Of a stretch of DNA of 64,000 nt, positions 3,496 through 30,768 are shown piece after piece (position 1 is the stretch's first letter; every line of letters starts with the position of its first letter). The notes under the pieces were generated by a model. That model worked only from the letters and a program-made list of their open reading frames with translations, had not been told where the DNA came from and made no database searches. The position numbers and the translations under genes are program-made. Origin of the DNA: Virgisporangium aurantiacum (GTDB lineage Bacteria > Actinomycetota > Actinomycetes > Mycobacteriales > Micromonosporaceae); contig NZ_BOPG01000072.1 in the NCBI RefSeq assembly GCF_016863635.1, positions 1 to 64,000 on the forward strand. The letters run 5' to 3'.

Positions 3496-4344
3496 TCAGA
3501 TCTTGGAGACCATGTTGAAGGTGAGCTCGACCGGGGTCTCGCGACCGAAGATCGAAACCTGCACCTTGAGCTTCTGCTGGTCGGCGTTGATCTCGGCGAT
3601 CGTGCCGTGCAGCGAGGCGAACGCGCCCTCGGTGACGGTGACCGAGTCGCCCACCTCGAAGTCGAGAACCTTGATCTCGGCCTTCTTGGTGTCCTTCGCC
3701 GGCGCGGCCGGCGCGAGCCACTTGAGCACCTCGTCGAGCGACAGCGGTGCCGGCCGGTCGGCCCGGTCGGTGGCACCGACGAAGCCGGTGACCCCGGGCG
3801 TGTTGCGCACGCAGGAGTAGGACTCCGCGGTGAGCTCCATCCGGACCAGGATGTAGCCCGGGAAGACCTTGTTCTGGACCTGCTGCCGCTTGCCGCCCTT
3901 GACCTCTACCTCTTCCCGGGTGGGGACCTCCACCTGGTAGATGTAGTCCTCCATGTCGAGGCTGGTGATCCGGGTCTCGAGGTTGGTCTTGACCTTGTTC
4001 TCGTACCCCGCGTACGAGTGGATCACATACCAGTCGCCGGGGGCGAACCGCAGTGCCTGGCGCATCTCGGCGACCGGGTCGACCGGGGGCTCGTCGGACG
4101 CCGGCGGCGCCGCTTCGGGCCGTGCCGCTTCGGGCAGGGCCACCTCGACTTCGGGAAGGTCGACTTCGGGAAGGTCGGCCTCGGGGAGGGCGGCTTCCGG
4201 CAGTGTCGACTCGTCGGCGTCGTCGGCCCCGTCGGCCGTGTCAGTGTCACCCGACTCGGCGAGGTCGGCCAGCGGATCGTGGGTGGTGACGCCCGCGGCG
4301 CCGCCCGTTGGACGGTTGTCGTCGAACTCGTTGGTCTGTGTCAT
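3496..4344 (-). CDS. nusG: Transcription termination/antitermination factor NusG with long acidic N-terminal extension
   Basis: NusG binds RNA polymerase, modulates pausing and links it to Rho or to the ribosome. The NGN domain begins near residue 100 ([19 protein letters not shown]) and holds [11 protein letters not shown] and [10 protein letters not shown]; the KOW domain follows near 225 ([19 protein letters not shown]). The protein has 282 residues against about 180 in E. coli, because of about 95 acidic residues at the N terminus including repeated LPEA/LPEV tetrads (about residues 48-75). Such extensions are common in actinobacteria, but the tetrad repeat is unusual. The gene lies six bases after secE on the same strand, the classic pairing. 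Confidence 0.97.
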
Positions 4345-14677: not shown

Positions 14678-15766
14678 ATGCGAATTGCGATCGTCGGCGG
14701 CGGACTCGGCGGGCTGACGCTGGCACGGATCCTGCACCGGCGCGGCGTCGACGCGACGGTGTACGAGCGCGAGGCGAGCCGATCCGCGCGGTCGCAGGGC
14801 GGCTCGCTCGACCTGCACCCGGAGTCCGGGCAGCACGCGTTGGCCGAGGCGGGCCTCGCCGACGGGTTCCGGTCGCTGGCGCGACCCCAGGGCGAGGAAC
14901 ATCGCATTCTCGACCCGACCGGACGGACCCTGATACACCACGAACCGCAACCCGGCTCGTTCTCCGGACGCCCCGAGATCGACCGGAGCGCCCTTCGTGA
15001 CCTTCTGCTCGACTCCCTCCCCGCCGACACGGTCGCGTGGGGACACCGGCTCGCCGCGGCGACCCCGCGACCCGGCGGCGGCTGGGAGCTGACATTCCAC
15101 GGCGGTCACCGGGCCGGGTGCGACATCCTCATCGGCGCGGACGGCGCGCGCTCGGTGGTGCGGCCGCTGCTGATCGACGTCCAATTGTCTTCTGTGGCCA
15201 TGCTCGTGGAGCTGACGATCGAAGACGTCGACCGGCGCCATCCCGATCTCGCCGAGCTGGTCGGCCCCGGGAACCTGTGGTGCGTCGGCGTGAGTCAGAT
15301 CCTGGCGGCGCAACGCCTCGGCGACGGCAACCTACGGGTCGGGATCTCGGTGCCCGCGGGTTCTATCGGCAGCAAGCGCGCTCTGCTGGACCTGTTCGCT
15401 GACTGGAGCCCACGCCTCACCGCACTCATCGAGGCCGGCGACGGCGCACCGACACCGCGTCTCATCGAAACGATGCCCCTCGGGACGCGCTGGGCCACCC
15501 GCCCGGACGTCACCCTCATCGGCGACGCCGCGCACCTCATGCCACCCGTCGGCGAGGGCGCCAACCAGGCCATGCTCGACGCCGCCGAACTCGCCGCCGA
15601 ACTCGCCGCCCACCTTGCCGCCGACCCGGGCTCGGCAATCCGGAAGTACGAGGAGGCGATGTTCGCCAGGATCCACCCGATCGCCGAGATGTCCGCACGG
15701 GTCCAGGCGATGATGCTGTCGCCGACCGCGGCGGACGACATCGTCCGCTTCTTCAGCCGGACTTAG
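14678..15766 (+). CDS. FAD-dependent monooxygenase, TetX-like
   Basis: This 362-residue flavoprotein has the class A hydroxylase motifs: GGGLGGLTLARILHRRG at the start (FAD ADP-binding), DILIGADGARSVVR near 155 (DG motif) and VTLIGDAAHLMPPVGEGANQ near 280 (GD motif for FAD ribityl). The pattern QGGSLDLHPESGQHAL resembles TetX and related enzymes that hydroxylate and inactivate aromatic antibiotics such as tetracyclines and rifamycins. The ATG start has GGAG nearby and lies just after the operator for the divergent TetR gene. True tetracycline activity is not proven; many relatives act in secondary metabolism. Its end overlaps the next gene tail to tail by 14 bases. Confidence 0.9.
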   Translation: MRIAIVGGGLGGLTLARILHRRGVDATVYEREASRSARSQGGSLDLHPESGQHALAEAGLADGFRSLARPQGEEHRILDPTGRTLIHHEPQPGSFSGRPEIDRSALRDLLLDSLPADTVAWGHRLAAATPRPGGGWELTFHGGHRAGCDILIGADGARSVVRPLLIDVQLSSVAMLVELTIEDVDRRHPDLAELVGPGNLWCVGVSQILAAQRLGDGNLRVGISVPAGSIGSKRALLDLFADWSPRLTALIEAGDGAPTPRLIETMPLGTRWATRPDVTLIGDAAHLMPPVGEGANQAMLDAAELAAELAAHLAADPGSAIRKYEEAMFARIHPIAEMSARVQAMMLSPTAADDIVRFFSRT

Positions 15767-16184
15767 CGTAGTCCCGGCTGAGCCAGTGCTCCGGTTCCAT
15801 CCGGACGATCATCATGGTGGCCGCGACGTCTACGGTCGCTTCGAGGTAACGGTCGGCGTCTGGCCCCAGGTAGCGCTCGGCGAGGGCGCGCCGCTCCTCG
15901 GGCGTGGCCGGATCGATCGCGGACACCGGCCCCTCCACGGACACGTACCGGTACGGCGGCTGCTCGGTCTGCGCCAGCAGGCTCACCCGCCCGGCCGCAC
16001 GAATCCGCTCGAGCTTGCGGGTGTCGGCTCCGGTGGAGAACCAGATCTGCCCGCCCGGCCGGTAGCCGTACCAGATCGGAACCGTCAACGGCGCCCGGCC
16101 GTCCCGGTCCGCGACACTCAGCACGCCGATCCTCGGCTCGGCCAGGAACGCCTCCCGCTCGACGGCCGTCATCGTCAATGTCAC
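15753..16184 (-). CDS. Pyridoxamine 5'-phosphate oxidase-fold flavin or F420 protein
   Basis: This 143-residue protein has the split-barrel fold: AVEREAFLAEPRIGVLSV, APLTVPIWYGYRPGGQIWF, then SLLAQTEQPPYRYVSVEGPV and a C-terminal helix region. Members bind FMN or coenzyme F420 and reduce varied substrates, or detoxify; the substrate is not readable here. I use GTG 16182-16184, which has GGGAG five bases upstream, in place of a longer frame with an unlikely Arg/Ala-rich beginning. It stands alone, convergent with the monooxygenase. Confidence 0.88.
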   Translation of the reverse strand: MTLTMTAVEREAFLAEPRIGVLSVADRDGRAPLTVPIWYGYRPGGQIWFSTGADTRKLERIRAAGRVSLLAQTEQPPYRYVSVEGPVSAIDPATPEERRALAERYLGPDADRYLEATVDVAATMMIVRMEPEHWLSRDYAKSG

Positions 16185-16343
16185 GTCGGCTCCCTTCGCC
16201 GTTCCATCTTCGCGCGCGGCCGGATCAGCCGCGCAGGGCCGAGACCGTGCCCGGTAGCGGGCGAGCGCGGCGTTCCGCGGGATCACATCCGCGACGCCGC
16301 CTGATCCTGCCGACTTTCTTGTCCGCGTGTTCTCCGCAGGTGG

Positions 16344-16882
16344 CTACCTGGCGGGGATCGTCCGGGTATCGAGGAAGAAGGGGAACGGCTCATCTGAGGT
16401 CAGCACCTCGCCGCTCTTGGCGACGGCGTGCTCCACGTAGTGCTCGCCGTCGAGGCGGAACAGTCGCAACCCCGGCTGGCCACGCTCCCGCTCTACCGAT
16501 CCGCGCGGCTGCGTAGAGCTGCATCTTCACAGGCCGGTCGGCCGCCGCGTTTGCCAGGCGAGACGACCTCGCCGATCAAGCGACCTCCGCGGCTTCGACG
16601 ACCACACCCTCGTCGTCGATGTCGGCGACGACGAGATTGGGGATGGCGATCCGGCCCGGCCAGCCGCACGTTGACGGCCTCGAAAACCCTGAGCCCCAAC
16701 GGCAGCCGCTGCCGGATCCACAGCATTGGTCAGCCGGCGAGCGAGGTGCCGGTGCCGCTTGCTCGGTGCCGGGCTCACAGCAGGCTCCCATCGAGCAGTT
16801 CGATCCGGTCCATGGTCTCGCCGAGCGCGAAGTAGTCGTCTTCGCTCCACGGACCGACGTGGTCGACGACCTGAACGCTCAT
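16344..16882 (-). pseudogene. Decayed Uma2-family gene
   Basis: Pieces of a Uma2 (DUF820, PD-(D/E)xK fold) protein lie in order in different frames. The start [18 protein letters not shown]...ELLDGSLL is followed by a stop; FEAVNVRLAG and RIAIPNLVVADIDDEGV follow in other frames; and the end [20 protein letters not shown]...FFLDTR is again readable to a TAG at 16344. They match the intact gene at 17115-17669 piece by piece. Several frameshifts and at least one stop disable the gene. It reads as the dead partner of a tandem duplication. Confidence 0.85.
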
Positions 16883-16983
16883 CGGCCTACACCTCCCGGA
16901 ATCCGAAACCACTCCACGCGTGTCTGAGCCCAGCGAGCCTGAGGCCGCTGTGTCGCCCGCGAGCGCCGACACCAGAACGACAG

Positions 16984-17032
16984 TGGCGGGTAGAGGATTC
17001 GAACCTCTGTAGCTTTCGCGACGGATTTACAG
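16984..17032 (-). repeat. 49-bp copy of the 3' part of tRNA-Tyr
   Basis: Positions 16984-17032 equal 17887-17935 base for base: discriminator, 3' acceptor strand, T-arm, variable arm and anticodon strand of tRNA-Tyr, ending at the anticodon. The 5' half of the tRNA is absent, so it cannot be functional. It lies behind the decayed Uma2 gene exactly as the full tRNA lies behind the intact one. It may be a recombination scar such as an attachment site, or the remnant of a tandem duplication. Confidence 0.9.
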
Positions 17033-17114
17033 AGCGAGCGTGGAACTGGCCGTGAGCTGCGGTTTGACGCAGCCAGGCCGCCATCTTCTCCGCGTATCTC
17101 CGGGCCTGCACCGC

Positions 17115-17669
17115 TCAGCGGACGAGTGAACGGGTGTCCAACTTGAACGGAAACGGGCGCTCAGAGGTCAGGACCTCGCCCTGCTTGGCCACGGCGCGCT
17201 CAACGTAGTGCCGGCCGTCGAGTTCGTTGAGGCGCAGGGTGAGCGAGTTGACCGGCTCGTGTTCGATCAGGAGATACCAGCCGATGCCGGCCGCTGCGTA
17301 GAGGTCCATCTTGAGGACCCGATCCATGGCGGCGTTGCTTGGCGAGACGATCTCGCTGATCAGCGGTAGCCGCGAGGCGTCGACGATTACCCCTTCTTGG
17401 TCCACGTCGACCACGGCGATGTCGGGGATCGCGATGCGGCCGGTGTGCAACCGGACGTTGATCGCCTCATAGACGACCAACCCGGCAGACGTTGCGGCCT
17501 CGTCGAGCGCGTTGGCGATGCGGCGGGAGAGGCGCTGGTGACTCCTGCTCCGCGCCGGGCTCACGACAAGGCTCCCATCGATCAACTCGATCCGGTCCGT
17601 CGTCTCGCCCAGCGCCAGGTACTCGTCCTCGCTCCACGGGCCGACGTGGCCGACGACCTGCACGGTCAC
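17115..17669 (-). CDS. Uma2-family putative restriction endonuclease-fold protein
   Basis: The 184-residue protein belongs to the Uma2/DUF820 family, with a PD-(D/E)xK nuclease-like core: [34 protein letters not shown] (Asp about residue 103), ISEIVSPSN (Glu about 121) and [19 protein letters not shown] (Lys about 133). The catalytic acids and Lys are kept. No clear biological role is known for the family, which is expanded in cyanobacteria and actinobacteria. The start GTG 17667-17669 has a perfect AGGAGGT seven bases upstream. It lies between a partial and a complete tRNA-Tyr and beside a decayed paralogue. Confidence 0.88.
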
Positions 17670-17886
17670 GTCTGACACCTCCTGGGGAGCCGGACCAAAA
17701 CGCGCTACATCGCGCTGCAACTCGCTACGCCGAGCCTAGCCAGCCCTGGGCGGTCGTGTCGCCCTCGACGCAGACACCCAAAAGTCATAACTCCGGCGGG
17801 GCGGGTCGATCGTAGGCCAGTGACGCACTAACGAGATCGGCCTCCGACCAGAGTAAGTCCAGGTCAGAGGCCTTGGGTACTGCGTG

Positions 17887-17967
17887 TGGCGGGTAGAGGA
17901 TTCGAACCTCTGTAGCTTTCGCGACGGATTTACAGTCCGCTCCCATTGGCCGCTCGGGCAACCCGCC
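17887..17967 (-). tRNA. tRNA-Tyr (GTA anticodon)
   Basis: The minus strand gives an 81-base class II tRNA with a long variable arm: acceptor GGCGGGT/ACCCGCC, anticodon loop GACTGTAAATC (GTA) and T-arm AGGTTCGAATCCT. No CCA is encoded. Its 3' 49 bases are repeated at 16984-17032. Confidence 0.96.
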
Positions 17968-29720: not shown

Positions 29721-30305
29721 ATGAGTGTTGTGACGGCCGACGATGCAGACGTACACCGCGGCTCCCCTCCGAAGAGGGGGGAGTGGACGGTTGACGACCT
29801 TGCACGCACACCGGAAGACGGGGTTCGGCGCGAGCTCTTCAACGGGGAACTGATCGTGAGCCCGGCACCGATCCTCCTTCACCAGCGGGCGGCCCTGGCG
29901 ATCCGCGATGCACTACAAGCCGCCTGCCCGCCCGACCTGGAGGTCTTCGTCGCACCTGTCGACTACGAGATTGCCTTGGACACGTCATTTCAGCCGGACG
30001 TGGTGGTGCTGCGGCGCGCCGACATCGACATCCTCGACGGAGTGGTGCGAAAACCGGCCGTCGTGGTGGTGGAAGTCCTGTCGAAGAGCACCCGAAAGTT
30101 TGATCTGGAGGACAAGCCGAAGGCATACGGGAACAGCGGCGTGGAGCGCCACTGGACCTTCGACCCGTTGACGGCTCATTTCGTGGCGCGGCGATGGCTC
30201 GGCGCCAAGTACGCGGAGGTGGCCGAGGCAAGGGGCGAGCAGCGGATCCGGCTCGACGAGCCGTACCCCGTCGAGATCTGTCCGGCGGAGATCATCAATG
30301 GATAA
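29721..30305 (+). CDS. Uma2-family protein
   Basis: The 194-residue protein is a complete Uma2 (DUF820) member: WTVDDLARTPEDG, FNGELIVSPAPILLHQRA, TSFQPDVVVLRR (catalytic-type Asp, about 92), VVEVLSKSTRKFD (Glu, about 115) and LEDKPKAYGNSGVERHW (Lys). It has the PD-(D/E)xK residues. GGGGAGG six bases ahead supports ATG 29721. It lies between nuoB and DUF2252 on the opposite strand and overlaps the next Uma2 gene by eight bases. Confidence 0.88.
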   Translation: MSVVTADDADVHRGSPPKRGEWTVDDLARTPEDGVRRELFNGELIVSPAPILLHQRAALAIRDALQAACPPDLEVFVAPVDYEIALDTSFQPDVVVLRRADIDILDGVVRKPAVVVVEVLSKSTRKFDLEDKPKAYGNSGVERHWTFDPLTAHFVARRWLGAKYAEVAEARGEQRIRLDEPYPVEICPAEIING

Positions 30306-30768
30306 CGCCTTCGTGCACGGGCCGTCGCTACTGCACCAGTACGCGGTACGGAACCTGGTGGTCGCTCTGATGAAGCACTGCCCACGTAGCCTCGAAGTGT
30401 TGCCCGGTCCGCTGGTACTGCCGCCGTTCCAGGCTCAGATAGCTCAGCCCGACGTGGTCGTCGTAAAGCGGGCGAGCCTGCCAGCGGGCGATGGACCACT
30501 CGCCACACCACCAGTACTGGTCGCCGAAGTGATCGACGATGACAGCCGCGCATGGGAACGGCAGTTCACACCGATGCTCTACGCAAAGAACGGCATCGAG
30601 CACTTCTGGCACTTCGACCTGGAGAGTTCGGAGTTCGTCGCCTACCGGATGAACGGGAACGCCGCAGAGTACAAGAAAGTCGTCACCGCCCGGAACGATG
30701 AACGGGTCGGATTCGACGCTCCCGTGCTGGTGGAGATCTGCCCGGCACGCTTGCGGTTCAAGGCTTGA
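30298..30768 (+). CDS. Truncated Uma2-family protein, probably inactive
   Basis: The 156-residue protein starts inside the Uma2 fold ([18 protein letters not shown]) and lacks the N-terminal ELxDGELVVSP segment of the family. It keeps [11 protein letters not shown] and [11 protein letters not shown] (Asp and Glu), but the Lys found in relatives is replaced ([10 protein letters not shown] instead of the D-K-x-K-x-Y pattern). It is translated in overlap (ATGGATAA) with the preceding Uma2 gene, so the two may form a dimer in which this one is a pseudo-enzyme. Its tail overlaps nuoB by 11 bases. Confidence 0.78.

Follow-up and report, generated by a model that had tools for sequence, protein, structure and literature searches.

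Organization of the tRNA-Tyr locus

The window, by which we mean the whole 64,000-nucleotide stretch of the Virgisporangium aurantiacum genome (14.1 Mb, rated 9% contaminated) that was analyzed, contains a complete tRNA-Tyr(gta) gene on the minus strand (17886–17967), identified with ARAGORN. The last 50 bp of this gene (17886–17935), spanning the tRNA from the anticodon loop onward, recur exactly on the same strand at 16983–17032, a spacing of 903 bp. When up to three mismatches were allowed, the repeat was found at only these two sites in the window and in none of 100 shuffles. Between the copies lies an intact Uma2 (DUF820) gene of 555 bp encoding 184 amino acids (17115–17669, minus strand; Pfam). 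On its tRNA side, direct reading revealed a terminator-like hairpin with one stem mismatch (17839–17872, minus strand), and hairpins comparable to it also follow tRNA-Tyr in other genera. On its other side, motif scoring placed an arm-like motif, CAGCTCA (17053–17059, minus strand), starting 27 bp before the displaced copy of the repeat. We refer to this interval, hairpin included, as unit A. The displaced tRNA 3' half is its right boundary and at the same time the left boundary of unit B, which carries a second Uma2 gene (about 16344–16882, minus strand). Alignment to the intact relative in Virgisporangium ochraceum showed that this second gene has decayed through several frameshifts and a 14-nt deletion.

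The repeat search, Pfam and the alignment thus confirmed a preliminary description in which the tail of tRNA-Tyr recurs exactly beside two Uma2 genes, one intact and one dead. The match was indeed exact, although its length is 50 bp rather than the 49 bp given there. The two Uma2 copies, described as greatly diverged, do differ, and alignment of the two units put their DNA identity at 70% over 550 columns. The same description had each Uma2 gene followed by a tRNA part, which needs to be reversed. As the minus strand encodes the tRNA and both Uma2 genes, tRNA-Tyr comes first in the direction of transcription, followed by the intact Uma2 gene, the 50-bp fragment and finally the decayed Uma2 gene, and each Uma2 gene therefore lies downstream of a tRNA 3' end. 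No recognizable repeat was found on the outer side of unit B.

The Uma2 protein of unit A matched PF05685 with an E-value of 1.6e-22 (80.3 bits against a gathering cut-off of 27). Its predicted model (pLDDT 89.2) matched 6okh, 9y1l, 3ot2 (E 4.4e-8) and 1wdj (E 3.4e-7) in Foldseek, and on this model the protein shares the fold of solved DUF820 nuclease-like structures. D83, E106 and K120, which we take to be the catalytic residues, were invariant across 30 Uma2 sequences. PADLOC assigned the protein the label PDC-S03, presumably a single-gene defence candidate; this is a label and not a test. No similarity to the tRNA-Tyr integrase described below was found in the 903-bp interval, in which Pfam identified the Uma2 gene. 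By Pfam analysis of the Uma2 coding sequence and the integrase comparison, no integrase, replication or FtsK/TraB-type transfer gene was recognized in unit A.

Several further features were noted in this genome. Adjoining the array, at 15753–16286, is a gene for an F420-dependent PPOX-class oxidoreductase (TIGR03618, 79.8 bits against a cut-off of 79.05), which was not found at the tRNA-Tyr locus of V. ochraceum. Two more Uma2 matches lie in tandem on the plus strand at 29793–30702, and no tRNA was found within the surrounding 7.9 kb. Elsewhere in the genome (L095, G000:C4:113000-120500), a Uma2 match of another clade lies at 3527–4141 of that locus, ~140 bp downstream of tRNA-Glu(ctc), where no tRNA repeat was found. 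A second, divergent tRNA-Tyr(gta)-like gene adjoins another tRNA (L235, G000:C12:777722-777868), so the genome may have another tRNA-Tyr besides that of the window. A search of plasmid records gave 40 matching records, and among the matches listed (20 of 40), all match from the tRNA on.

The order of the units is reversed in a sister species

The locus was compared with that of V. ochraceum NBRC 16418 (G002; contig NZ_BOPH01000003.1, 85,141 bases), a member of the same genus. In this species the order is tRNA-Tyr, intact Uma2 of the B type, an identical 50-bp fragment (50/50) and decayed Uma2 of the A type, the reverse of the window. Thus, the tRNA-proximal Uma2 gene is intact and the distal one decayed in both species. 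DNA identity between the species was 89% by blastn and 87% by MAFFT for unit A, and 84% and 87%, respectively, for unit B. The reversed order suggests that the units owe their position to the integration machinery of larger mobile elements and not to copying in place.

The YajQ and VWA genes that flank tRNA-Tyr have a dS of 0.39 between the two species, at which an old fragment without function should have diverged. The unchanged fragment in both species suggests that it was part of a working tRNA until recently. The exact identity of the repeat had previously been read as a sign of recombination at the tRNA end. The identity stands, but a tRNA end that remained functional until unit A arrived explains it as well as gene conversion does.

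The preliminary description had proposed a search for an empty site; within the genus, no clean one was found at tRNA-Tyr. Neither V. ochraceum nor genome G001 has, beside tRNA-Tyr, a counterpart of the stretch that follows the array in the window. Elsewhere in V. ochraceum (L107, G002:C39, 3614–6108), two intact Uma2 genes and one decayed one lie in tandem, and no tRNA fragments were found there.

tRNA-Tyr is a probable attachment site of AICE-type elements

A 45-bp tRNA-Tyr pattern matched 215 of 300 sampled genomes of the family; by hand count, 78 of the 215 had at least two matches, a few of the second ones lying far off or on another contig. Behind tRNA-Tyr we found nine elements whose tyrosine integrases are nearly full length and belong to one family, each element ending in a tRNA-Tyr fragment; one is split over two contigs (G024) and another, of 48.7 kb, was read only at its ends (G031). 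The identity segment in these elements is 50–54 bp long. In Pfam analysis, the G251 element had FtsK over the cut-off together with GntR; the G261 element had DUF3987 and DnaB-N, with an FtsK match below the cut-off; and the G017 element had Prim-Pol, DUF3987 and GntR, with no transfer gene recognized. The integrase domain passed the cut-off in G261 and narrowly missed it in G017 and G251. On this gene content, the term AICE-type, after the actinomycete integrative and conjugative elements (AICEs), is well grounded for G251 and likely to apply to the others. None of the seven fully read elements contained Uma2, which indicates that Uma2 is not routine AICE cargo.

An unsupervised search at width 7, run on the 60 bp preceding the fragment at each of the nine AICE-type ends, returned the motif C[AT]G[GC]TCA. 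It sits 26–27 bp before the core in all nine ends; about seven match in full, and G030, G251 and G107 differ by one or two letters. In ends that had not been used to build the motif, it occurred at the same register in the window (P 0.001) and in V. ochraceum (0 of 4000 shuffles), as well as in G145, G159 and G160 (P 0.0003–0.0008). It was weaker in the held-out ends of G088 (P 0.0095) and G001 (P 0.023), and was not found at G315, G307 or the tRNA-Val unit ends. The width-7 result is the most favorable of five, as P values were weaker at the other widths: at width 9 a different motif emerged (window P 0.049, V. ochraceum P 0.004), and at widths 12, 16 and 20 the values were 0.026, 0.036 and 0.18 for the window and 0.024, 0.006 and 0.013 for V. 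ochraceum.

These results support the second proposal of the preliminary description, that the repeats are attachment sites of an insert of about 900 bp: AICE-type elements are bounded by the same tRNA-Tyr segment, and the unit in the window bears, at width 7 and more weakly at other widths, the motif of their ends at the same distance from the core. The only match to the tRNA-Tyr integrase in the window's genome and in V. ochraceum (E 1e-15 or better) has one in-frame stop, and no intact integrase of this type, a possible helper, was seen in either genome. At seven Actinoplanes-type and two Dactylosporangium tRNA-Tyr loci, no tRNA-Tyr fragment above shuffles was found within 2.5 kb after Uma2.

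Similar units occur at other tRNAs

The tRNA-Val locus in the window's genome carries a relative of the unit B Uma2 (UmaB), a degraded tRNA-Tyr fragment, a tRNA-Val 3' half, an HNH unit and another tRNA-Val 3' half. The Uma2 and HNH units here are alike at both ends, with 129 identities over 160 bp on the left, core included, and 109 over 150 bp on the right, far above 300 shuffles. The right end was found only in this genome (G000) among 300 genomes. At tRNA-Phe, D. vinaceum has two tandem Uma2 units and V. ochraceum has one, and in the window's genome the tRNA-Phe 3' half was matched just once, with no second half. There, the two Virgisporangium genomes are 86.6% identical to just past the tRNA and synteny resumes further on at 82–83%; the unshared part measures ~2.8 kb after the fragment in V. 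ochraceum versus some 430 bp in the window's genome.

A second motif, TGTAGCAACG, starts 92–94 bp before the core in 9 of the 12 displaced tRNA-Phe/Val halves tested and is found before neither of two complete tRNAs; three of these nine ends carry it in duplicate at 105–106 bp. As the nine ends include Uma2, HNH and HicAB units, this end is common to different cargo and to two tRNAs. The motif was lacking at the right end of the ParE unit itself, in G088 and at one end of G118, and was not found in tRNA-Tyr units. The doubled motif with up to three mismatches occurred in 13 of 354 genomes, and a backwards control pattern in 9, so only hits with 0–2 mismatches (G129, G138, G145, G118 and G083) or those beside a tRNA half are meaningful.

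In Planosporangium thailandense (L321, G097:C49:1-12000), four tRNA-Val-like 3' halves lie in a row, 1.3–2.6 kb apart, and form a longer array of this type; TGTAGCAACG precedes three of them and follows one, and no complete tRNA was found in this stretch. The cargo of this array includes PhzF-like and glyoxalase-like genes, and hence not all such cargo is toxin-like. In a further locus (L324, G067:C99:1-6000, 1552–2937), TGTAGCAACG and a tRNA-Val-like half are followed by a Phd/YefM-ParE pair.

A tree of 69 Uma2 proteins connected the units at different tRNAs. The Uma2 of unit A grouped with Actinoplanes-type Uma2 proteins at tRNA-Tyr and tRNA-Thr (support 100/96), and V. ochraceum UmaB with the tRNA-Val copy of the window's genome (support 100/99; dN/dS between the two 0.088). 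Single Uma2 lineages therefore sit at different tRNAs, namely Tyr and Val, and Tyr and Thr. For 48 of the 69 proteins, including those of Micromonospora, no tRNA or fragment was assigned within 2 kb; one of these (L182), scored as none, has a tRNA-Cys 1.4 kb downstream.

Probable accretion of units at tRNA-Tyr and its alternatives

We consider that the locus is probably an accretion array of att-bounded units at a tRNA-Tyr attachment site. This judgment covers the accretion alone and not the size of the units on arrival, and it overlaps with the first alternative discussed below. In our best reading, the units are accreted CIMEs (cis-mobilizable elements), free of integrase and reduced to nuclease or toxin-antitoxin cargo. 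An AICE-type tyrosine integrase, acting in trans or, together with an adjacent element, in cis, would join the 3' part of tRNA-Tyr, starting at the anticodon loop, to its counterpart on incoming DNA by recombination. The newcomer would bring a new 3' half and displace the old one outward; since it supplies this half, the tRNA would remain whole. In the window, unit B may have come first and now be decaying, with unit A arriving later, still intact, and leaving the 50-bp fragment between them. Nuclease or toxin genes would presumably be retained by selection.

A census of unit size and cargo covered 50 intervals that have tRNA 3' halves of the same strand at both ends; they come from 45 hand-chosen loci, a non-random sample picked mostly for short spacing or via Uma2. 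Among the 21 intervals of up to 2 kb, eight hold an intact Uma2 gene and one is similar to the tRNA-Tyr integrase. Such similarity was found in 14 of the 22 intervals of 2.2–8.2 kb, and all seven intervals above 11 kb showed similarity to both integrase and xis and held no Uma2 (0/7). The eight small Uma2 units, at tRNA-Tyr, -Phe and -Val, had no similarity to the tRNA-Tyr integrase, the comparison covering the integrase only; two of them (G107 and Val) came to light via Uma2 rather than a tRNA pattern. The G017-type integrase used as the query misses other integrase types, e.g. those of D. roseum and D. sucinum.

The other 13 small units varied in cargo. One unit paired HicA with HicB, and another a Gp49 protein, which we label HigB-like, with a helix-turn-helix protein. 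ParE was accompanied in a third by a Phd/YefM match below the cut-off, in a fourth an HNH gene lay together with a partial match to type IV restriction, and a fifth held a MerR regulator. The unit at tRNA-Phe in D. roseum contained, besides an unrecognized gene pair, the remnant of an integrase and a RepSA match below the cut-off. In six of the remaining seven, no scanned ORF scored above its Pfam cut-off, and in the seventh (G102) only an integrase trace was seen.

The alternative that survives best is that the units are only relics. Full AICEs with Uma2 or toxin-antitoxin cargo would have integrated and lost the rest by deletion, and the small units would never have moved as such. This reading agrees with ours on accretion and differs on movement, and we regard it as a serious possibility, if one that falls short of even chances. 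Intermediate-size relics with integrase remnants are common at the tRNA-Tyr site, and an intact Uma2 gene is present in two of the intermediate intervals, one in A. italicus and one in P. ferrugineus. An antisense Uma2 gene lies near an integrase remnant at tRNA-Thr in A. philippinensis, and another near a below-cut-off integrase match at tRNA-Pro in D. vinaceum. The integrase remnant and RepSA match in D. roseum likewise favor an origin of that unit by deletion from an AICE. However, the absence of Uma2 from the seven fully read AICE-type elements argues against this scenario, as do the eight small Uma2 units without similarity to the tRNA-Tyr integrase and the presence of UmaB relatives at both tRNA-Tyr and tRNA-Val. 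Furthermore, the ends shared by tRNA-Val units of different cargo would require separate deletions to similar end points.

Duplication of the unit in place, with the tRNA part kept identical by gene conversion, had also been proposed in the preliminary description. A tandem duplication of tRNA 3' half, terminator and Uma2, with gene conversion or repeat recombination maintaining the tRNA part, would fit the presence of the same pair of units in both Virgisporangium species, and homologous recombination among the 50-bp repeats could amplify, lose or reorder units. We nevertheless consider it unlikely. Tandem duplicates should be closest relatives, but a clade of the two Uma2 genes of the window was rejected (p-AU 0.017), as was a sister relationship of the two tRNA-Phe copies in D. 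vinaceum (p-AU 1e-4). Across loci, a single clade of all tRNA-Tyr copies was rejected (p-AU 5e-61) and one of all tRNA-Phe copies was not (p-AU 0.166). These p-AU values are weakened, as the groups were named after the tree had been seen. Duplication is also disfavored by the reversed order in V. ochraceum, and it predicts neither AICE-like ends nor similar units with unrelated cargo at several tRNAs such as tRNA-Phe and tRNA-Val.

Homing, in which Uma2 would cleave its target close to the anticodon loop of the tRNA gene and the unit would be copied beside the tRNA during donor-templated repair, is in keeping with the nuclease-like fold predicted for Uma2, its invariant and putatively catalytic residues and the HNH gene in a similar unit, but is very improbable given single Uma2 lineages at different tRNAs, toxin-antitoxin units of the same architecture, unit ends that match AICE-type ends, and the 48 Uma2 proteins with no tRNA or fragment assigned nearby.

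Returning to accretion, a bolder version would treat the units as 'addiction cassettes' of the Micromonosporaceae: units of 0.8–2 kb, each with one Uma2, one restriction-like nuclease or one toxin-antitoxin module, moved in trans by AICE integrases into integron-like arrays. Their bounds would be tRNA 3' halves plus arm sites, C[AT]G[GC]TCA for tRNA-Tyr and TGTAGCAACG at a fixed distance for tRNA-Val and tRNA-Phe. Taken as a whole, this proposal is tentative and more probably wrong than right. If an integrase does move the units in trans, they would form a cassette system parasitic on AICEs, which would help to account for the spread of Uma2 and toxin-antitoxin genes. The reversed order in two sister species makes the question directly testable in culturable soil bacteria.

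Comparison with known systems

Att-bounded islands that lack an integrase are described as CIMEs in a passage of PMC5704250. Unit A, flanked at both ends by the 50-bp direct repeat of its target segment, resembles them: it is an att-bounded island without recognized integration and transfer genes, in an array probably stacked by successive site-specific insertions. In contrast to CIMEs, units of the type seen in the window are ~0.9 kb long, contain one gene, occur at several tRNAs and often carry a nuclease or toxin-antitoxin module, and their mobilization is putative.

AICEs offer a second parallel. According to a passage of PMC3364876, pACPL, an AICE of Actinoplanes, integrates in the 3' part of a tRNA gene, and its 43-nt identity segment is flanked by arm-type repeats. 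The tRNA-Tyr elements share such a segment in the 3' part of the tRNA, of 50–54 bp compared with the 43 nt given there for pACPL. Unlike AICEs, the units in the window have no recognized gene for an integrase, an excisionase, replication or transfer. That AICEs accrete at a tRNA is already documented in a part of PMC9513070, and tandem AICEs are described in a part of PMC3218068. A passage of PMC2701414 treats Uma2/DUF820 proteins as predicted solo toxins in paralogue cassettes of cyanobacteria and does not mention tRNA boundaries. Judging from that passage, the likeness lies in the same protein family and the tandem paralogues.

The units also resemble integron cassette arrays in being short, single-gene and in tandem, but the repeated site in the window is a tRNA 3' half. 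Integron arrays consist of short single-gene tandem units with a common recombination site, and toxin-antitoxin genes are frequent in them.

In titles and abstract openings, we found no description of such units. As a concrete example, the locus shows the smallest of att-bounded islands carrying mostly nuclease or toxin-antitoxin genes, suggesting that the tRNA 3' ends of actinomycetes gather such genes singly. Compared with known accretion, what is unusual here is the size of the units, their cargo of a single nuclease or toxin-antitoxin module, their recurrence at several tRNAs and their reversed order in a sister species.
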